From Chrysoperla carnea (lineage: Eukaryota; Arthropoda; Insecta; Neuroptera; Chrysopidae), in NCBI RefSeq assembly GCF_905475395.1, contig NC_058338.1, positions 92,799,435 to 92,863,434 on the forward strand: a DNA stretch of 64,000 nt, given 5' to 3'. The position numbers were made by a program, and so were the translations under genes. Below are positions 2,584-51,792 of the stretch, one piece after another; the stretch's first letter is position 1, and each line of letters opens with the position of its first letter. Below the pieces are notes generated by a model. It saw nothing but the letters and a program-made list of their open reading frames with translations. It was not told the DNA's origin and searched no databases.

Positions 2584-3111
2584 GTGCTAACATGTGAGGT
2601 AATTGCTTGGGTCAGCTAGGGACATTTATCGGATGTGTTCCGTAATATACACCAGTATACTGGCCGGTGCTCATAACGTCAGAAATCGACGCCATATTGT
2701 ACTGGTATACTACGCCATATTGTACGGGTAAAACGGGCATGATAGTGCACATGTGTTCACCGAGTGTCTGTGCAAGAAATTTATTTATTTATTGTTCATT
2801 AAGAAGGAATAATGGCCTCTGAAAAAGACTTACTCGTAAATGACGAACACAATAAGAATATATATTTAAGAATATATATACACGCACTGATTAGTATATT
2901 TCGAAACGATTCACCAGTATGGCGTCGGTTTATGGCATCGTTAGCACTGGCCAGTATACTGGTGAACATTAAGGAACATACCCGAAAGAATATAGGGACA
3001 TTTATCAAAACAATACTACAATGACAAGTATGGCAACAACACTTTGTTTTGACATTTCTAGACGGCCGCCATGATGGATTTGACCTAAGCAATTACCTCA
3101 TATGTTGGCAC
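2584..3111. mobile_element. MITE with ~31-bp terminal inverted repeats and CCAGTATACTGG palindromes
   Basis: The ends are inverted copies: GTGCTAACATGTGAGGTAAT at 2584 and, read from the other strand at 3111, GTGCCAACATATGAGGTAAT; the match continues through TTGCTTRGGTCA. Inside are several copies of a perfect palindrome, CCAGTATACTGG, within a longer inverted pair (about 2640-2700 and 2915-2985). It holds only a 70-codon ORF and no transposase, so it is non-autonomous. A second, inverted copy lies at about 13800-14135, and the two bracket the D2HGDH gene. Confidence 0.75.
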
Positions 3112-3270: not shown

Positions 3271-6200
3271 TCATTTTATTTCATCAGGTAACACTTTATA
3301 AGGATTTAAGATTTTATTTGGATCCATTAAATTCTTCAATTGTTTCATTAACAAAAGTGCACTACGACTTTTCGAGTAATGTATCACATGTGCCTTCTTA
3401 AATCCTATACCATGCTCAGAACTTACACTACCCTTTAATTTGGATACGTACTCAAATACGTATGGCTCAACTAGTTCCATCACTTCATGTGAATATTGTT
3501 TTGTTGAAATATTTAAATGTAAATTTCCATCACCTAGATAATATAAGAAAACGTTGTAAAACTTTTTGAATATGCTGTTTTGAAAACAATGTGAATCGAT
3601 AAAAATTAAACACAATCCAAATGTAAACAAGCCGATATTAGTTTTATCAAATATTAACTATATTAGCTTTTAAAATTTGTCCATGTCCTTGAGAATCAAT
3701 ATTTTTGGCAACAGCAAACGCCGACGCTTAACTAATCAAAGCGAGTTTTCAACATTTCATTTGGTAGAAGTGAATCCAGCTGATATATTCATGAAGCATG
3801 CATGTCTATCTAATCTAAAACTTAGTTTAGTATAAAAAAAATAAATAAGGCAAAATGAAACGTTGACGGATGTCGGACGCAAGTGCAATAAAAATTGTAT
3901 ACGACTTTAATTTTAGAAAAGCTTTGTTTCGCATGTTTTCGACATCTGACAGTATGACATATAGGCTTCATAAGATCATCCCTGGTTTAAATATTTTCTG
4001 CCAATAGTGTAATTTTATCTTGCAGTGTTCTGAAAAACAATTCTAGAAGAATGAGTAAGTATAAAAATTTCTAAGCAGTTTGAATTTAGCTAAAGTATAA
4101 GAGTTAAACTTTTTCAAGATTAAATTAGACTATTGCCGAAATTATTTCCACCAGGGATCGTTTCTGGAAACTCTTCCACTGATAAGTAAAAAAATTCATA
4201 ATCCTACCTATATGGCCATATCCAATAACTCGAATAGCGAGACTGCCTAAACGTTTAGTCACATCAGGCACAATTGAATAGAAATGCTCTAAAGGTAAAG
4301 TAACATCGTATTTAAGTGTATAGCCATCTTTTAATATTCCATCGGTTATTCGTTCACGCAATTGCCATATCGTCTAAAAACATAAAAATTTTATGTTTAA
4401 TCGACGTATTAATATTTTGGTTACAAACTCAGCCAGTCAAGGAAATATAAATTTATCGAATAACTAAAGGGAAATAGAAGTGCCACAGTCCCTGGATAAC
4501 AACGAAAGCTGATGCAAAGGAGATTCTATACGCTTAAAAATACTTCGCCAGCTTAAAAATTACATTGGATTGAGGTATATTCCTGTCCTCGTAATCGTTC
4601 TGTATTTACAGGCCTAGCCATTGATATAAAGCTTGAATAGGAATAAAAATAGAAAGCATGCAAGTTTCTAATTTTTAAACAGTTTGATAAATGACAAAAT
4701 GAGACATCCAATTCGAAAGTAAATAACGAGAAATGTATGACTTAGTAAATTAATTTTACGGAGACAAAATTATGTGTATCGATTACCAGTTATGGAGTAG
4801 AGTGAGCATTTCATTGAGCTTGAAAAACTAAGTCAAGTTTATTGTATGCGTAAGATGTGCGCAAATAAAAGTTATTTCTTGAGTTTCAAGCATGCTTCAA
4901 GCGAAAAATATTGAGTGTGTAAGCGCACATCTTACGCAGACAATAAACTTGACTTTGTTTTTTTTATTTATTTATTATATATTTACGCTCTTGAAGTAAA
5001 AGCAATTTTGAAATCGTTTTTTCATTTTTTCTTCATAACTTTCAACGGAAAGCGCAATTTGGCGTAGAGAAACTGTTTTTCAACAACTCATATCAACCTT
5101 ATAAGTAATATTAATTTCATGGGTTTTTGGTAACTAAAATCCCCCAAATTTTCACGTCCATGGAGGTAAAGGATTTTAGCTAGGGAATTTAGGTTAACTG
5201 TTTAGTACATAAAATTTGCTCTTCATAAACATCGATTATTCTCACGGTTTACTCAAAATTTACGATTTTAATCTTTTGTGCCAGAATTTCGAAAAATTAT
5301 TTACTTATTTTATTCAGTTTTTTTTTAGAGAAAAAAAGACTTAAATAACAGTAATTATTCACATCGGCGCTTTTTTTATGTTTTTGTGTGCGTGCAAAAA
5401 ACAAACTCATCACATTCAATCAATATCGCGCTATCCGCTCTAAAGTTATGGAAGAAAAACGATTTCAAAATTGCAACTTAACTTCAAAATCGTATAGCGC
5501 CAAAAGGGAGCAAATTTTACTATGGCATGTACGGTAGAGCGTTTTAAAGACCTTTTAGAGATACCCTATAGAAATCACTGGAGAAAAATAAACACCAATT
5601 GATTAAGCTAAGACTCGCAAAAAAAAAAGTAATTCATAGCATGTTTACATTTAGATTGTTTAAATTTTTGTAATTTTTCAATATTTTGATGCAGTATACC
5701 TAAATGACCAAATCCAGAAACACGGGCATGTTTTCCAACATAATCACTAAGATCAGTCACCATTTCGTAGAATTTCGATAATGGCAATGAAAAATCATAT
5801 GTGTACATGTACCCATCTTTTAACAAAGCTTCTGCAATTCTTTCTCTAATTTCCCACATTGCCTACATTAAGATGGTATATTAATAATATATCTTTCGCA
5901 TTTAATTTGAATTTTCGAAAAATCGAAATACATAATTTATTTTTTTTTTATAATAGATGATTCTATCAAAACTCAACGAAAATTTTTATAAAAATCAAAA
6001 TTTATAACTTTTTAGCTAATGTAAAACTTGCGATATCACCAATGTGAAATTAAAAAATTTTCAATTTTACCAACATCGCCGAGTTCTAATGTCTCCATAG
6101 TTGGGTAATTCCACCGGATTTTGATAATCAATTCGGAATATTTTGGAAGGAGGCTAATTTTTTTTATAGTTTTTTTTCGTTGTAAAAATACAGGAAAGGA

Positions 6201-9200
6201 GTTTTCCGGTTTCAGAACGATCTGCATGTCCTTCTGCCCGCGGTTTTGGGACAATTTGTCTGTACGTTGTTTTCTTTGGTGATGTTATCTTAAATATCTC
6301 TGCTTCTATTAATCGGATTCAGATGAATAAAAAAAAATTGTTTGTTATGAATTTTTGCATTGGCCTTGTTTGCTATTGAAACAAAAGAAACATATTTTAA
6401 AAAAATAGTTTTATCCCAAAATTTTCCGAATTGATTATCAAAATCCGGTAGATTTACCCAACTATCTAGATAAAATTTGAATTTTTAAAATTCGACCATA
6501 AATAAAAATTTTAGTAATAAAAAAAAATGATTTTGATGGTAATTTGGATAATAATTTTATTTTAGGAAATTATGGATAGAAAACAGTAATACTTAAGATG
6601 TGTACCTTTGAAGATGAATTTGTAATAACATAAAAACAAACACAATTGCCCAAATTATTTCCACAAGCAAACAAATTCGAAGACAACCAACATTTTTTTT
6701 GTTTTGTTTAAAAGGCTAACAACAGAGGGCTATACGAATAGTAAATTTAACATATTTCTATCGTTCCGATAACTATTTTGTAAGCCTTCCAAATATCCAA
6801 CTCACACTTTTCCATCGATTAGTTATTGTCATTTTATGGAGTCCAATTATAAGTAAGTTTTAGATTTCTGTAGGAAAATTTTAAGTTTTAATGTTTTTAA
6901 AATAGCAAAATAAAAAATGTATAATTTTAATTCGTTTTGAAACATAATTATCTTTACAAAGCCATACAATACTCGAAAGTTAACTTTCAGGGTCGTATTT
7001 TTTTTCCAATGTTAAATTTTAGTAAATTTTATTAATCGAAGCATGCATTATTATTTTATGAAATCAATATATGTGAATATTAGTTTATGGAAGTTAGTAC
7101 GAAGTTAAAAATTTACACATTAATAATCTTTTTCATCCTAGATAAAATGCAAAAACACAGATCGGAACAATATGTGATCCAGGTTTATATCCGGTGAATA
7201 TCAAGCATCATCCAGCGGAAGGGCGGAGGATTCAAACTTTTGTTCATCATGTTATAAAGTCAATAAAAATAAGACACGCTCTTTTCGAGTAAAAGGGCAT
7301 GTCAAAATGTGATTCCTAGTCACTATTTTTCAATAAGTTAACTCTTTGAAGTACAGAAAAAACTTTTCTAAAACTCTGTACGAATCGACCTCTTCAAAGC
7401 GATATATATTGAGACATTGTCGATCTAACGTATGTTTTGAGACGACGTAAAGTTGGAAAGGGCATCCATTCGTCGCTGAATGCTTCGAGTGCATTTTTGT
7501 CAACCTATCCGGCAATGCGTTTTCGCCAAAGTTTAATTTTTAATCCAAATATCGGAAATCATAGTGCAAAATTGAAGGAGTCAATCAAAATTTGATGAGT
7601 CGTATTCATCGCAGATTTCGCTCACAGTTTTGAATTTTTTTCTGAATTCGTTGACTCAGATAAAAAGTGTATAGAATAGTCCAAAATATAAAGTTTTCAC
7701 ATGAAATTTTTGACCGACACCACAAAATAATCTTGTGGTGTCGGCCAAATGTAATTATTTTCGGCAAAAACGAGTTTTCGGCGAAAATTCACATTTTTGT
7801 TTTCCAAATGCTTATATCTCGAAAACGATGACGTTAGGTAAAAAATGTCAGGAATAAAGAAATGCTGAGAATTGTCCAAAATATGAAATCTAATGGTTTT
7901 TATTAATGTTAAATAAAGAGAATGTGATGTCCGGAAGTAGGGTACTTCTGCCCCACCGTATGGAGGTAAATCGAAACCTGACGAGGAGTTAATTTCTTGG
8001 TTAGACTGTTTTTTCGATTTTATTTCCTCGAATAACTAAGAAATTTGTTCTAGAACATCGACTGTAGAAGTCTTTCACTGTTGAGAGAAATTTTATCAGT
8101 GATAAGTTATACAAAAATTCAGAAACTTACATGAACTTTTCCAGGTTCATTTGTAACTATTCCATTAGTAATATTACCCTTTTCCAAAGCTGTTTCAATA
8201 AATTTATTTAATTTCTCCTCATCATGATTCATATTACTGCCTGATGTTTCAATTAGCATATAGAATGGTGAACTTTCATTTAATGGATTACGTAATTTTA
8301 GATTTTCTTCCACCACGGCTAATGATTGTTGATCCATCATTTCACATGACGATAAAATTTCACCTAAGTCTTGTTTAGCTTGTTTAAAAGTTTTCAATAT
8401 ATCTTCAAATGAATTCAATGCTAAACGAATAAATTTCGGTCAAAATTTTAAAATTAGGAAGAATTTTTGTTAAAAAAGGAATTGACCGCTTACATAAAAA
8501 TGCCACATTTATTGCCCGAGGTTTAATTGGACAATTTATTGCTACTTTCGTAACAAGACCTAATGTTCCTTCGGATCCAATAAATAAATGTTTTAAATGA
8601 TATCCAGTGTTATCTTTTTTTAAAGTACTTAAACAATCTACAATTTCTCCATTGGCCAAAACCTAAAATTTTATAAAGTTTTATCAAAGGTTCGAATTGT
8701 ACAATCCAGAGGCGGATTATCCATACAGGCGCGATAATACAAAGGGGTTCGCGCGCGGTAGGTTTGAAACAAGTATAAAACTAATTGTGTAGGTATGGAA
8801 GTCTAATTCAAATAAGTGACAGGCTTTTGTCCTAAATTTAAAAATTGATTTATACGTTACATTAGAATCTTTTTTACGCTTAAAAAGTATTATTTAAAAA
8901 AAAAAAAAAAAAAACACTATTTACATTTTCAAAAATCAATTCAAATTTACTTCGAAAACAATGTTTAATGTCATGGCGTCTTGAATGACATCACGACTTG
9001 GCATAAAAACATTTTCGTATATGGAAGTTTAAGCAGTTGTAATCAACTAACCTGCTTCGTTCTATTAAAATATAATCTTGTTTACATAGCGTTTCTTATG
9101 GCGTGACGTAATACTTTCAATACTTTCTGATTTCTCTTCTTCAAAAGAGGCGAGAATGGTACAGCAATTTTTACAGAAAATTTTCGTTTCTAAGCAATTT

Positions 9201-12080
9201 GAGGAATTTGAACACTAAAGAAGTTCTAAATAGAGCAACTATGTTAGTAACGAAATATTCTGGTGATTTATAAAATTGCTTTTTTGGAAAATGTATTATT
9301 CTACATTCTTATTTAACAACGATATCTCGGGCTGGAGAACTGTCCCGAACAACCAACACGATTTTACAGGTTCTAAGAAATAAAGAACTTGAAACTAAAG
9401 AACTAAAAAAAGGTCTTTTTATTACGGGAGGCGCCAATTTTTTAAACTGTCTACGAAGGCAAAACATTTTTTAATCCGCCTCTGGTGTAATCATATTGAA
9501 TACATACTGCTTCAACTCCCAAAACAGTACCATGAAGATTTCCATATCGTAACAATCGTAAGCCCCCTGCATTTGTCGACACATTACCACCAATATTACA
9601 TGAACCTTTTGCACCCAAATCAATTGGCATCATAAAGCCTTTCTCATTTAAATATGAATCTAACACTTCTAATATGCATCCCGCTTGACAGACCAGAATA
9701 CCTATTAAACGTTTTTCTTAGTACAGTCAATAAAAGCACATCACTTCACCTAGCCTCACGGAAGTAAGACCTCTTTAGCCCATTTGGCTGTTTGATTAAA
9801 TAAATCAATATGATAATAAAAATTTTTGGACCAAAAGTCACGAAAAGATTTCGTTCATTTAACTAATACAGCCCCGTAAACTTTTTCGAGTAAGAGAACA
9901 TTTTATAATGTCAAAATGTGATATCCAGTCACTATTTTTCAATGAGTTAACTTGCGAAGTACAGAAAAAAACTTTTTAAGCGATCTTCAGACATTGTCGA
10001 TCTCTCTCTGTAAACGTATCAAAAAAAATCGATGTACGATAGATTGTGATCCGAAAATAATATTCAACTGAATCAGTCTGTAAATTCGAACGTTGAGTTT
10101 GTTTTGGCGCGAGCCTTGGCTTGCGTAATTCTATGTCGTATTCAACGCAGATATCACTCACAGTTTTGAAATTTTTTCTTAACTCTTCTCTAGCCTTTCC
10201 TCTTCTTTCAATCATTTCAATCAAAATCTGTTTCACATCAGTCAATTCGATAGACAAGATTCTGGTTTTCTGTTTGAATTTTTCGACTCAAAGACAAAGT
10301 CAAAGAATGTACAAGTAAAAATGGCATACAGAAAAAATCGAAAAAAAATTCCAAACGTCTTTTTGTTTCGAAGTTTAATAAAACTCAGTATTAAGTGTAA
10401 TTTTGATCCAGAGAATAAAAAAAAAAAAAAAAGATTCATTTCAAGATTAATCAATAATTTTCTATGGTATCGCGCGAAATCCTATATTTTGGAAAGATTT
10501 TCGACGATATCTCAAAAACTATTCAAGGTTATCGAGTCATTTTTCCCATAATGAGAAATAAAACTTCAAACAGACACGTCCCTAAAGAAGTTTCACATCA
10601 GATATCAGAAGAGAAATTCAATTTTACCTGAGTTTTCATCAAAACTAATAATATTATTCATTAACGTTGTAGAAATAACAATTTCATCATGCACAGGTAC
10701 GGATCCACCTACAAGACCAGTATTTCCACCTTGAGGGCATACTGCAAGACGTTCTTTATTACAAAATTCTAAAATCTTAGATACTTCTTCAGTTGTTCGA
10801 ACTTTTAACACTAATTTGCTATAACCTATAATTGAAAATCAATTAAAAAATATATTTTAAAATAATACGATATCGGTTGGTTACCTCTGCAGTTTTTGAT
10901 CCAATCGACATTGTAACTTTGTACTTCATCTTCGTCAGTTAACACACGAGTTTCTCCTAATAACTGTGTAAAATATTTTATATGATCATCATTTAATTGA
11001 CTGTAATCGCCTCTTTTCACCCCATATCTATCCTGAAACCAATAAAGGATTTTTCAAATTGAAAATTAGTCGCATCAATTAATGTTTTTATTTGAAAGTC
11101 CTCAATAGTAGCTACAATTTTGATGATTTAAAAAAAAAAATGTTTCTTTTTGTATATTATTTAAAATCAGAAACCTTTCGGAGAGGGGGGAAAGGCAATG
11201 TCTCGACTGAAAGGCTAATGACAGAAGATTGAAATTTCGAGAGGATGATTGATTTTATACTGTAGGTGCCATTTAAGAAAGGATTTTTCGAAATTCATCC
11301 CCTAAAGATGTGAAATAGAGGATGAAAATTCGTATGAAAATATATACATATCGTCATTTTTGAGTTCACTAGTTAACCGATTATAAAAATTCCTTCACTT
11401 AAAGAATGCTACATCATCGCCAATGAACATGGGTATATTATTCTCAAAAAAGTTAGGGCTCGCACCAAAAGTTAATCAGACATCAGTTTGGATGATAAAT
11501 ACTTAGTTTTCCGATTTTGTGCCAAAAAGTGGAATTTCGGGACAAAAATGGCTCGATTTTTGGAATACGGGACATAATTCATGTAATCTGATATCGGATT
11601 CATATTCAGCGAACAAAAATGCCTACCAGATGACAAATTTAAGCCAAAATAAGCCTTTCAAAAAAATTTGGACTACATATGCCTTCAAGCTGTGGCCCTA
11701 TGCTTCTTTATGACTAGGCTAAGTTTGCTGATTGTTCCTTGGGGTCCTATAAACACTTTACAAAAAGTTTCATTAAAATCGGAGCTGTTTCCCCACCTAT
11801 CCACTTTCAACACTTCTTTCCGGCTTATTCATTGTATGTTAAATTCTCTAATCGAACTAAATTTATTTTTTTTAAATACCTTCGTTAATTCTGGTAACGA
11901 TGGATCGCTAGAATAAAATGCTTTTTGTTTATATTGTGGAAGATAAGTTGTTGGCGCTGTTAGTAAAACAATCGATGGTGATGAAACAGTTGAAAAATTT
12001 GAAGTACATCCGGTGGAAGAAAGAAAATTGACAGGTGCTTGATAAGCCAAACGTCGATTAGAATGTATACTTCGAAACAT
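3271..12080 (-). CDS. D2HGDH: D-2-hydroxyglutarate dehydrogenase, mitochondrial, with two alternative versions of exon 7
   Basis: FAD-dependent oxidation of D-2-hydroxyglutarate to 2-oxoglutarate in mitochondria. Exons on the minus strand: 12080-11880, 11032-10885, 10825-10628, 9701-9508, 8662-8494, 8420-8131, then 5862-5700 (copy A) or 4373-4208 (copy B), then 3533-3271. Every junction is GT-AG and in phase. The product is 541 aa with A or 542 with B; human is about 521. The N-terminus ([10 protein letters not shown]) is Arg/Ser-rich like a mitochondrial presequence; Met at 12080 follows aaa, and an in-frame Met 39 bp upstream is a weaker alternative. FAD-binding signatures are [35 protein letters not shown] and FIGSEGTLG. 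The metal/active-site part is G(Y/F)GH(I/L)GDGNLHLN and SSEHGIGF. It ends [12 protein letters not shown] like the family. All exons look intact. Confidence 0.95.
3980..4156. mobile_element. Small MITE, CCCTGG family, in a D2HGDH intron
   Basis: Inverted ends CCCTGGTTTAAATATTTTCT (3980) and, from the other strand at 4156, CCCTGGTGGAAATAATTTCG; both continue into WATAGTSTAATTT. Same family as the element at 62606-63201. It lies between exon copy B and the last exon. Confidence 0.65.
4208..4373 (-). CDS. D2HGDH: D2HGDH exon 7, copy B (keeps canonical substrate residues)
   Basis: A 166-bp exon (55 codons plus 1 base). The acceptor is tttttag before ACG ATA TGG and the donor is GTAGGA after CAT ATA G. 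It encodes residues 401-455 ([12 protein letters not shown]...GYGHIG). By alignment to human D2HGDH it keeps the Arg, Thr and Lys matching R386, T390 and K401 (here 406, 410, 421) and the zinc-ligand His of GYGH. It joins in phase both to exon 6 (ends ...AAA GTT CAT) and to the last exon (GT GAT GGA). It shares about half its residues with copy A, so the duplication looks old. No stop or frameshift. Confidence 0.85.
4779..4954. repeat. Fold-back repeat in the intron between exon copies A and B
   Basis: Two 32-bp arms at 4832-4862 and 4923-4954 (GCGTAAGATGTGCGC facing GCGCACATCTTACGC) differ at about two positions. The outer end CGATTACCAGTTATGGAGTAG recurs inverted at about 26430-26455, inside a second copy (26341-26460), so this is a dispersed MITE and not a local regulatory hairpin. 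Confidence 0.55.
5700..5862 (-). CDS. D2HGDH: D2HGDH exon 7, copy A (two substrate positions changed)
   Basis: A 163-bp exon (54 codons plus 1 base). The acceptor is aatgtag before GCA ATG TGG and the donor is GTATAC after CAT TTA G. It encodes [12 protein letters not shown]...GFGHLG. It uses the same phases as copy B, so it substitutes for it exactly. The Arg at 406 is kept, but the Thr position is Ala (410) and the Lys position is Thr (421); the metal-binding His is kept. The reading frame is intact and the core of the exon (LLKDGY, SLPL, VTDL, GHLG) stays conserved, which argues against a dead copy. Confidence 0.85.
6060..6480. repeat. Dispersed repeat, member 1
   Basis: A stretch with an AATTCGGAATATTTTGG-type core, then TTTTCGTTGTAAAAATACAG and GAGTTTTCCGGTTTCA, recurs at about 39190-39330 in an ACE-like intron. 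Neither copy has coding content. Confidence 0.45.
7240..7520. repeat. Dispersed repeat shared with 9880-10270
   Basis: Both segments carry CTTTTCGAGTAAAAG-, CACTATTTTTCAAT- and GAAGTACAGAAAAAA-like blocks in the same order, on the same strand, in two D2HGDH introns. Short ORFs here belong to this repeat. Confidence 0.5.
9880..10270. repeat. Second copy of the 7240-7520 repeat
   Basis: Same block order as at 7240-7520, in the intron between D2HGDH exons 3 and 4. Confidence 0.5.
11460..11835. repeat. Dispersed repeat, plus orientation, D2HGDH intron 1
   Basis: Contains TTGTGCCAAAAAGTGGAATTTC and ends near CACTTCTTTCCGGCTTATTC. The same sequence occurs inverted and partly doubled at about 41095-41560 in an ACE-like intron, and its GGCACAAA/ACTTCC block again near 50030-50110. 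No transposase is visible. Confidence 0.5.
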
Positions 12081-13743: not shown

Positions 13744-13799
13744 CTTATTTGCTGCTTTTTCGATGGACACTTAAAAACAACATGGCCGACTTTTTTTTT

Positions 13800-14135
13800 T
13801 GGTATGTTCCGTAATATTCACCAGTATACTGGCCAGTGCTAATGACGGCATAAACCGACGCCATACTGGTGAATCGATCCGAAATATACTGGCCAGTGCG
13901 TATATATATATTCTTATTGTATTTGTCAATTACGAGTAAGTATTTTTCAGACGCCATTATTCCTTCTTAATGAACAATAAATAAATAAATTTCTTACACA
14001 AGCACTCGGTGAACACGTGTACACTATCATGCCCGTTTTACCAGTACAATATCACGCAGTATACTAGTACAATATGGCGTCGATTTTTGACGTCATGAGC
14101 ACTAGCCAGTATACTGGTGAATATTACACACCCTT
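13800..14135. mobile_element. Second, inverted copy of the 2584-3111 MITE (core only)
   Basis: Reads as the reverse complement of the first copy: the stretch around TTCCTTCTTAATGAACAATA and several CCAGTATACTGG palindromes are shared. The outer 31-bp ends found at 2584 and 3111 are not seen here, so the copy is truncated or belongs to an inner element bounded by ATGTTCCGTAATATTCACCA. Confidence 0.65.
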
Positions 14136-49075: not shown

Positions 49076-51792
49076 ATGGCTTATAAACCGAAAGCAAAAA
49101 AGTTGCCACAAATGGTGGCAGCATTAACAGGTATGTAATCATTTAGATATTAAGGATTTGCCCCGCTTGATGAATATTGAGAAAAAAACCGGGTGTATCA
49201 GAATATTCGGTTTAAAAGTGATAGCATGCATGCGAAGACTATTATGGAGAAAATTGTCGAAAAAACCATAGCCTAATATGCGATTTGATATACCTGCGAT
49301 TTTTGTATGTTTATGAAGGATCTCCGGATCGGGAAAAATTTTTCGTCTGCAATTTCGATAAAACTCATACATAAGATAACTTTTACCCAAAAAATACAAT
49401 AATAGTGTTTTTTTACGATGGCGTCCATAATTTCTGAAATATCACAAAAGCCCATGATGCGAAGACTATTTTCTCGGAGCGATTTTGTGTGATAAAATTT
49501 TGAATATTCAACCAATCATCAAATCAATCTGAATTTGTAATTTTTGGGCTAAAATTATCCTATATACCATGTTTTATCAAATTCTGAGACAAAAATATGT
49601 GTTCGATTTTTTCGAATTGTTCTAAAGGTTACCCTCTTAAGAATTGGGTTTTTTTTACGATTGGGTCCCTAGTTTCTGAAATATCACAAAAGCTTATTCG
49701 AAGACTATTTTTTCGGAGAGATTTCGTGTGATAAAATTGAGAATATTCTATCGATCGTCGTTAACCCCTTAAGAAAAATGCAAAAAATCGAGAACAATTT
49801 TTCGTCTTCAATTTCGATAAAACTCGTTACATAAGGTAATTTCGACCCAAAAAATACAAAAATTGCTTTTTTTTACGATATATGACAAAAGTCCATGCAA
49901 AGAGAAATTTCTTGGAGCGATTTCATGTGATAAAATATATACTATTTTTACAATCGTCAAATCTACCCGATTTTTGTAATTTTTGGGTCAAAATCTGATA
50001 TTAGATGACACGATTTCTTTCACATATTCCAAAAATCGAACCTTTTTTGACCCGAAGTTCCACCTTTGGCACAAAGCGGAAAACTAACTATTTTTCGTTG
50101 CCTAGGAGGTATTTTTGGTCGCTACTACTTATCAGTTAAGACCTCTAGTTGACTTTCGAACGTATTTAAGGATATAGTTGTCACCCTATTAGCTCAGTTG
50201 GTTAAGTAGCGGGTTCGATTCCCGCCGTCACAGCAAAATTAATTTAATTAATAGTTGTGATGGGCTGGTGTAGTGCATGGTATATGCATGAAGGAGGTGC
50301 ACTCAGCCTCTAAAATTGAGGAGCTGATAAATGAAATTATCAGCGGAAAGGTGGTAAAACACATATACGGTAATCACAATGGGATAAGTTACTCGTCTAG
50401 CAGGTAACGCTTTGATTTGACAAATGTTAAAATTTTTGTAAATTTACAGGTTGTATTGGAGGATTCTGCTTGGGTACGGTAATTGGGTGGTCATCACCAG
50501 CTGGTAAACCACTTAAAAAATTAGATCTAAACGGAAAACAAGTATCATGGATTGGATGTATAAATTGTCTTGGTTCTGCATTCTCAGTTTTACCATTACC
50601 ATTTATAATGGATAGAATTGGACGAAGACTTTCTATGATGATAATTGCTGTTTTTTTATGCCTCTCTTGGATTATGCTTGCTTTCGTAGAAACATTTTGG
50701 CTTTTAATAATAGCTAGATTCCTTTGTGGCTTCTTTAGTGGATCATTTTGTGTTGTGTCTCCCGTATATACAGGAGAAGTTGTCGAACCTCGAATAAGAG
50801 GTGCTTTAGGATCATGTTTTCAATTGTTTATCGTATTCGGAATATTTGTTTTATTCGCTATTGGTTTGACTGAAAATCTCTTAGTATTAAGTCTGTTTTC
50901 CGCTGTATGTCCAGTAGTAATGATTGTTATTCTAATATTTCTACCCGATTCACCATTGTTCTTAATCGATTCGGGAAAAGACGAGGAACGGATTGATAAA
51001 GCATTTATATTTTTACGTGGGAAAGATTATGATTTCACAGAAGAAAAAGTTGAATTAGCCAAAGAATTAATTGAAGCGGATGAAAGAAAAGCTGGAAACT
51101 TAATGGATAAATTTAAAACTAAAGCGACTAAAAAAGGATTTATTATTGGTTTGGGCTTAAATATCGCTCAACAGCTCTCTGGTATTAATGTTTTAATGTA
51201 TTACGCTACGAAAATATTCGCAGATTCTGGAACCGCAATAACACCAGAAGTTTGTAGTGTAATACTTGGTGTAGGACAAATTGTTGGGACATTGTTAGCT
51301 GTTGCTATATCAGATCGTGCTGGAAGAAAGATTTTACTAATAATATCGTTTGCAGTGATGGCCGTATGTTTATTAATAATGGGATGTTATAGTTTTTTTA
51401 CAAGGAACGAAGATTTAGACGACATATCATCGGGAATCCGTTTAATTCCAGTTTTCGTTACGACCATCTACGTTATAGCATTTTCAATCGGTGCTGGGCC
51501 TTTAGTGTGGGCTTTAATTGGTGAAATGTTTGCACCAGAAGTGAAAGGTGTTGTATCTTCGATATGCGCATTTTCGAATTGGATGTTTGCATTTATAATA
51601 ACGTCCACATATACGTACATGGAAGATGTTTTCAAACCATACGGTGCATATTGGTTTTATTCAGCTGCTGGTTTCCTTTGCGTTGTATTTATTATATTTA
51701 TGGTGATTGAAACGAAGAACAAGACTTTGAGAGAAATTCAAATTGCATTAGGAGGTGATGACACCACTAAAGAGTCAATACAATACAATTAA
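49076..51792 (+). CDS. Facilitated sugar transporter, MFS (trehalose transporter Tret1-like)
   Basis: Two exons, 49076-49130 (MAYKPKAKKLPQMVAALT) and 50450-51792, joined in phase at GG|GT, giving 465 aa with twelve hydrophobic segments. Sugar-transporter motifs are all present: DRIGRR (73-78, loop 2-3), LPDSPLFL in place of PESPRWL (about 183-190), QQLSGINVLMYY (259-270), DRAGRK (307-312), GPLVWALIGEMF (368-379) and ETKNKTL (439-445). It would move a sugar such as trehalose or glucose down its gradient at the plasma membrane; substrate cannot be read from sequence. Exon 1 is too short to stand out alone but supplies the standard N-terminus ahead of TM1. An AATAAA at 51818-51823 lies 26 bp after the stop. 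The 1.3-kb intron is filled with repeats and a SINE. Confidence 0.92.
49180..50110 (+). repeat. Imperfect tandem repeat in the transporter intron
   Basis: Words TTTCTGAAATATCACAAAAG, TCGAAGACTATTTT, GGAGxGATTTxGTGTGATAAAAT, TTTTTCGTCTxCAATTTCGAT and CCCAAAAAATACAA recur two to three times, at about 49320-49560, 49640-49760 and 49790-49990. The units are diverged. The 3' part resembles the 11460-11835 repeat. Confidence 0.65.
50180..50420 (+). mobile_element. tRNA-derived SINE lacking the anticodon arm
   Basis: A pol III A box (TAGCTCAGTTGG, 50190-50201) and B box (GGTTCGATTCC, 50212-50222) are only about 10 bp apart, whereas a tRNA needs about 30. The anticodon arm is thus missing and this is not a tRNA gene. 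About 200 bp of unrelated body follows. It ends about 30 bp before the acceptor of transporter exon 2. Confidence 0.65.

Follow-up and report, generated by a model that had tools for sequence, protein, structure and literature searches.

The window, a 64-kb stretch of DNA, matches Chrysoperla carnea and contains, on the minus strand (12080–3271), a complete gene for D2HGDH, the mitochondrial enzyme that breaks down D-2-hydroxyglutarate. A splice model starting from the ATG at 12080 translates to the full protein. It comprises the following exons, with residues given in human numbering:

11880..12080, minus strand: exon 1, with the ATG at 12080
10885..11032, minus strand: exon 2
10628..10825, minus strand: exon 3
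9508..9701, minus strand: exon 4
8494..8662, minus strand: exon 5
8131..8420, minus strand: exon 6, constant, upstream of the switch, ending in phase 0
5700..5862, minus strand: exon 7 copy A, encoding R386, A390, T401, F432 and H434; 79.0 bits to the exon-7 profile
4208..4373, minus strand: exon 7 copy B, encoding R386, T390, K401, Y432 and H434, the canonical pocket; 88.1 bits to the exon-7 profile
3271..3533, minus strand: last exon, common to forms A and B, encoding H441, N443, E475, H476 and the stop

The protein that includes copy B (form B) is identical over all 542 residues to the public C. carnea 'mitochondrial isoform X3' (P0001), a name which implies that several models of this gene exist in public annotation; the identity assigns the window to this lacewing or to one of its very close relatives. 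Form A did not turn up as a public record of its own. P0001 represents a 90% identity cluster of three members, in which form A, 95% identical overall, would be hidden. Both forms are similar to human D2HGDH (PDB 6lpn) at E 2.9e-175 (form A) and E 1.7e-175 (form B), and a Pfam scan of form B detected both PF01565 (FAD_binding_4) and PF02913 (FAD-oxidase_C). LDHD is not the closest enzyme to form A by sequence: form A scores 587 bits to human D2HGDH and 139 to LDHD.

The gene is flanked by two copies of a ~350-nt element with inverted ends, lying in opposite orientation (2629–3001 and 13782–14127); its 227-nt arms are 91% complementary, and it looks like a MITE. The next gene, at 1–1200 on the minus strand, we take by eye to be a thymidylate or nucleoside monophosphate kinase. 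On the plus strand, a long open frame at 50431–51792 matches sugar transporters (PF00083), and 40556–40921 matches angiotensin-converting-enzyme-like peptidases (PF01401) just above the cut-off.

The exon pair and the choice between its members

A sequence-only reading of this locus had described two alternative exons of 163 and 166 nt, about 1.3 kb apart, that encode the same protein segment at roughly 50% identity. Coordinates and lengths were reproduced, with an intron of 1,326 nt between A and B, and the two translations agree at 25 of 54 aligned residues (46%). Both exons begin in phase 0, end in phase 1 and are bounded by AG and GT, again as described. The predicted consequences for the reading frame were likewise recovered: inclusion of A followed by B runs into a stop after six codons (...GHLDDMAIA*), skipping both gives a stop after six codons (VMEIYI*), and only single inclusion yields a full-length protein, of 541 aa with exon A and 542 aa with exon B. 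The order B then A also fails, with a stop after five codons (...GHIGNVGN*). The pair thus combines neighbouring homologous exons, equal phases and a frame that breaks upon double inclusion or skipping. The proposed logic of mutually exclusive splicing is supported at the sequence level, where the frame enforces single use and form B corresponds to public isoform X3.

Neither copy looks like a decaying relic, since the identity to human D2HGDH is 29/54 for exon A and 29/55 for exon B. The coding frame contains no stops in either exon, while the other two frames contain 3 and 5 stops in exon A and 6 and 4 in exon B. The six frames of the window were divided into stop-free peptides, and those of 12 aa or more were searched with an exon-7 profile built without Chrysoperla. 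Copies B (E 5e-26) and A (E 3e-23) were matched far beyond chance, the next-best peptide reaching 7.7 bits, and no third copy of exon 7 was found in the 64 kb by this search. The other D2HGDH exons have no second copy in the window, where tblastn finds each constant exon once. The exon pair is confirmed and proves to be of greater interest than the initial description suggested.

The A–B intron is long and all sites are of the GT-AG type, which makes steric hindrance and U2/U12 incompatibility unlikely causes of exclusivity. In transcripts that join A to B, the stop would lie in exon B, some 146 nt upstream of the following junction, and ordinary decay should remove them. The stop produced by skipping both lies in the last exon and would escape the exon-junction rule; the resulting protein would be devoid of the zinc ligands that exon 7 and the last exon encode.

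An ungapped complementarity scan between introns, with dinucleotide shuffles as control, identified two candidate pairing arms:

5637..5670, minus strand: candidate arm in the A–B intron, starting 30 nt after the exon A donor
3600..3634, minus strand: candidate partner arm in the last intron, ending 66 nt before the last exon

Pairing of 5670–5637 with 3634–3600 (–30.7 kcal/mol) is the best complementarity between these two introns. Its ungapped score was reached by 0 of 100 and then by 10 of 1500 shuffles, about 0.007 uncorrected for being the best of four intron comparisons; the other three were unremarkable (32, 19 and 93 of 100 shuffles scored as high). Given the positions of the arms, pairing would join the regions of the exon A donor and the last-exon acceptor and loop out exon B. 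This intron duplex is a candidate splice regulator of the exon 7 choice. A second, weak complement of the last-intron arm overlies the acceptor of exon A (5889–5855; score 28, next 25); it would make a competing structure and is offered as a lead.

Two further inverted repeats lie nearby. One, within the A–B intron (4823–4962), is arranged head to head without a spacer, with 70-nt arms at 77%, and could be a fold-back element or influence splicing. The other lies in the intron upstream of exon A (6092–6470) and has 72-nt arms at 85%.

Substrate pocket residues encoded by the two exons

The available passages of a study of human D2HGDH (PMC7801405) assign the substrate contacts residue by residue. 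The C1-carboxyl is contacted by R386, T390, H434 and H441, the C2-hydroxyl by H441, E475 and H476, and the C5-carboxyl by T390, K401, Y432 and N443, while zinc is held by H434, H441 and E475. The same passages state that K401 forms a salt bridge with the C5-carboxylate and that its mutation abolishes activity, that mutations of T390 and N443 lower activity 2.6–3.4 fold, and that expression of a Y432 mutant failed (PMC7801405).

Five pocket positions fall within exon 7: 386, 390, 401, 432 and 434. Exon B encodes R, T, K, Y and H at these positions, and form B has the same letters as human D2HGDH (6lpn) at all ten sites examined. Exon A encodes R, A, T, F and H, so that form A differs from the human enzyme at 390, 401 and 432. 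R386, H434, H441, E475 and H476 are present in both lacewing forms. From these residue sets, the swap is predicted to spare catalysis and to alter the side-chain end of the pocket. Taking K401 as the criterion for C5-carboxylate binding, form B has the lysine and form A a threonine; judged by this residue, form A is a member of the D2HGDH family by descent and not a D-2-hydroxyglutarate dehydrogenase. Position 390 is a poor discriminator, with alanine also the commonest letter among proteins that have K401 (K-type; 61 of 124 rows of the alignment described below).

A single-sequence fold of P0001 gave a mean pLDDT of 32.8, and an alignment-based model (81 rows) of the Schistocerca protein P0010, which lacks K401 (A-type), was used instead (mean pLDDT 86.6; exon 7 91–97). 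The closest structure to this model is human D2HGDH 6lpn (TM 0.96 on target, 2.0 Å), followed by 3pm9, LctD and LDHD-type enzymes. The letters at 401 and 432, read by eye from the alignment, are T/I in 9qgz (named inconsistently, as D-lactate dehydrogenase in the title and glycolate oxidase for the molecule), S/V in LDHD, E/F in LctD and K/F in 3pm9. LDHD (8jdb–8jdy) and 9qgz/9qit share the fold of form A and have a small residue at 401 (S or T) and an aliphatic one at 432. Form A differs from LDHD in that its sequence places it in the D2HGDH family, in retaining N443 and in having a small side chain at 390. The pocket of the A-type is therefore similar to, and not the same as, that of the D-lactate enzymes. 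The small residue at 390 together with N443 should leave more room than in LDHD.

The pocket change in other insects and its genomic routes

Homologues were collected by a protein search with form A (the best 120 of 8000 scored candidates, those sharing most words) and a second search with a profile from 12 A-type rows (again the best 120 of 8000). A protein search with exon A alone (region mode) was insensitive, with 3 matches among 220 candidates. The searches gave 147 proteins, which with form A and the human enzyme made 149 aligned rows. Among these, 114 have K401 and Y432, 10 have K401 and F432, and 25 lack K401. One of the latter, P0059, a gene model without the exon-7 segment, was dropped from the residue count, leaving 24 usable rows, and among these matches listed all 24 also lack Y432. 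At position 401 they have T (13), C (4), A (3), V (2), I (1) or L (1), and at 432 F (21) or, once each, L, I and M; position 390 is A, P or G. D-lactate enzymes have a large hydrophobic residue at this position, so lactate is one candidate substrate among others. E311, R386, H434, H441, E475 and H476 are kept in 149 of the 149 listed rows.

Judged by record names, we take the A-type rows to come from seven orders: Neuroptera, Coleoptera, Lepidoptera, Orthoptera, Phasmatodea, Hemiptera and Thysanoptera. Rows whose names indicate a crustacean, hymenopteran, cockroach or termite, or caddisfly are K-type among the matches listed, and no Diptera were recognised among the listed record names. The census is a lower bound, because clusters at 90% identity hide isoforms that differ in one exon. 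All A-type rows are ncbi, nr or uniref records, and none is from the lgn source (transcript-length contigs). Exon A is less like the K-type homologues than exon B (mean 46% vs 53%, 122 rows).

The ten rows with K401 and F432 (P0061, P0074, P0079, P0092, P0103, P0106, P0111, P0114, P0115 and P0117) all lack N443, with V in five, Q in three, S in one and A in one. The nine that carry a species name are presumably Hymenoptera. These rows may mark another pocket shift.

The change occurs in different genomic settings. In Chrysoperla, the forms differ in exon 7 only, the rest being the same gene by construction. The Planococcus citri isoforms X2 and X1 are identical across exons 1–6 (346/346) and diverge in exon 7 (28/57) and exon 8 (47/83); by sequence, this is an alternative two-exon 3' cassette with the same switch between K-type and A-type. 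Most A/K pairs of moths, beetles, thrips and crickets differ throughout (60–85% in exons 1–6) and are gene duplicates, although the Pectinophora pair (74% in exons 1–6) is labelled isoforms X3 and X1. Two stick-insect models, P0003 and P0004, chain several exon 7–8 modules in frame, K-type then A-type, which points to tandem terminal cassettes. Going by these gene models, other insects thus appear to have arrived at this change of the pocket by way of alternative exons, alternative two-exon cassettes at the 3' end or duplicated genes.

Of all segments, exon 7 shows the lowest similarity in each of the 19 A/K pairs compared, a result tempered by the greater variability of exon 7 among K-type rows as well, and by a set that includes the lacewing pair, identical elsewhere by construction, two cross-genus and two cross-species pairs. 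The Spodoptera litura protein P0118 and S. littoralis P0093 are 98% identical in exons 1–6 and differ at 4 of 55 exon-7 residues, including K401T and Y432F, and by N443F in the next exon. This contrast may reflect recent gene conversion, a difference between copies or a mix-up of models.

The origins of the A-type exons were examined in a tree of 64 hand-labelled exon-7 segments out of 151 extracted, from which columns 390, 401 and 432 were excluded; its columns are few and its bootstrap unsettled. Within these bounds, the A exons of locust, mealybug and thrips group together (support 100/94), as do those of four beetles (98/94), and the moth A exons nest among moth exons. A single origin of all 25 A-type exons was rejected on this tree (AU p 0.005), and a single clade of the 14 non-lepidopteran A exons is compatible with the AU test (p 0.059). 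The result favours two or more origins, or gene conversion mimicking them, and possibly a single very old origin outside Lepidoptera.

A tree of the constant exons retained 143 of the 149 rows (P0002, P0003, P0004, P0006, P0028 and P0059 were dropped). In most random pairings on this tree, K401 and Y432 are lost jointly in 8 of 8 independent pairs; some pairings gave 7 of 8 and one pair without a difference (sign test, median p 0.0078). The 11 changes on this tree are not a count of origins, because a cluster representative may be either isoform. The exon-7 tree offers 2 supported independent pairs (10 when all branches are used), which is not significant.

Proposed function and comparison with known systems

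We consider it fairly likely that exons 7A and 7B of the lacewing D2HGDH gene are used in a mutually exclusive manner, so that the gene gives rise to two flavoenzymes of the mitochondrion, and that the choice of exon probably alters the substrate. Form B, with the human-type pocket, would be the ordinary D-2-hydroxyglutarate dehydrogenase. Form A would handle the C1-carboxyl, the C2-hydroxyl and zinc as before, through R386 and H434 of exon A and H441, E475 and H476 of the last exon. Its ligands for the C5-carboxylate are replaced (K401 by T, Y432 by F), as is T390, which contacts both carboxyls (by A). Form A may thus still oxidise D-2-hydroxyacids, lose D-2-hydroxyglutarate and accept an uncharged side chain, as in lactate or in branched or longer 2-hydroxyacids; we would guess at a D-2-hydroxyacid whose side chain is neutral and perhaps branched. 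Frame disruption and decay would clear products with both exons, and the RNA duplex between introns 7 and 8 would favour form A by looping out exon B.

A different, rather unlikely explanation is that form A is a weak or dead subunit that regulates form B through assembly, the electron acceptor or FAD, or an off-switch for D-2-hydroxyglutarate clearance. An off-switch requires no new substrate, and mutation of human K401 abolishes activity on D-2-hydroxyglutarate (PMC7801405, passages as above). However, the catalytic and zinc residues are invariant in 24 of the 24 usable A-type rows listed, including gene duplicates, where no shared exon forces their retention, and the restricted replacements at 401 (T, C, A, V, I, L) and 432 (F, L, I, M) fit selection for activity. 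Less probable still, form A could keep a dicarboxylate-type substrate through another contact and catalyse the same reaction as a variant with other kinetics or tissue use. The last exon, common to both forms, retains N443 as the remaining ligand of the C5-carboxylate, and the ten listed rows combining F432 with K401 imply that F432 alone need not mean a new substrate; what form A has lost, though, is the lysine that pairs with the second carboxylate, and the human K401 mutant is inactive in the passages cited (PMC7801405).

It is very improbable that exon A is a relic or noise exon that is never usefully included: its lower similarity to K-type homologues (46% vs 53%, 122 rows) would fit, but its frame is open, it has both splice sites and phases that match, it agrees with the human enzyme at 29 of 54 residues and it retains R386 and H434, and the same pocket change is seen in seven insect orders. 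An assembly or haplotype artefact joining two loci, for which no supporting point was found, is scarcely credible, given that the 46% identity of A and B excludes haplotypes, that the constant exons are found once each by tblastn in the window and that the public B isoform is identical.

A switch of substrate by exclusive use of exon 7A or 7B is the account we prefer. Beyond the lacewing, we put forward more tentatively, at somewhat less than even chances, that insects repeatedly evolved a D2HGDH with a neutral site for uncharged D-2-hydroxyacids by duplication of an exon, a terminal cassette or the gene, with the lacewing using duplex-gated splicing. The common ancestor of the lineages outside Lepidoptera may already have had an A-type exon, that of Lepidoptera having arisen separately; an alternative exon and a gene copy would then be interchangeable means of keeping the enzyme pair.

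The exon swap affects contacts that define the substrate in the human enzyme, which is linked to disease, and it spares the catalytic machinery; the natural versions in seven insect orders provide about two dozen sequences, not all independent, with which to test specificity residues. The pattern points to a D-2-hydroxyacid pathway in insects not known before and offers a case in which an alternative exon may do the work of a duplicated gene. The sequence-only reading knew of no report of alternative exons in D2HGDH, and our search of PMC open-licence full text, by titles and abstract starts, found none; a literature search for LDHD in insects brought up nothing related. Form A could conceivably stand in for an LDHD that insects lack.

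Splice events that re-aim an enzyme by swapping part of its active site are rare, according to the available portion of a study of coq-2 (PMC7434440). There, mutually exclusive exons 6a and 6e of C. elegans and other helminths switch the substrate (eLife 2020, PMC7434440). Our best reading is that the lacewing exons would switch side-chain specificity and work like those of helminth coq-2. In both, the choice between two mutually exclusive exons affects the core of a conserved metabolic enzyme of the mitochondrion, a few residues decide, and one exon form is general while the other is confined to some lineages. The enzyme and the phylum differ, and the coq-2 case rests on RNA, mutants and metabolites, whereas splicing and substrate in the lacewing are predicted. 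Unlike coq-2, the D2HGDH change in insects came about by several genomic routes, with at least two origins indicated. The most prominent other example named by the coq-2 authors in that portion, with few others known, is the pair of CYP4F3 splice forms (PMC7434440). CYP4F3 is a cytochrome P450; as in the proposed lacewing D2HGDH switch, the specificity of an enzyme is set by splice choice.
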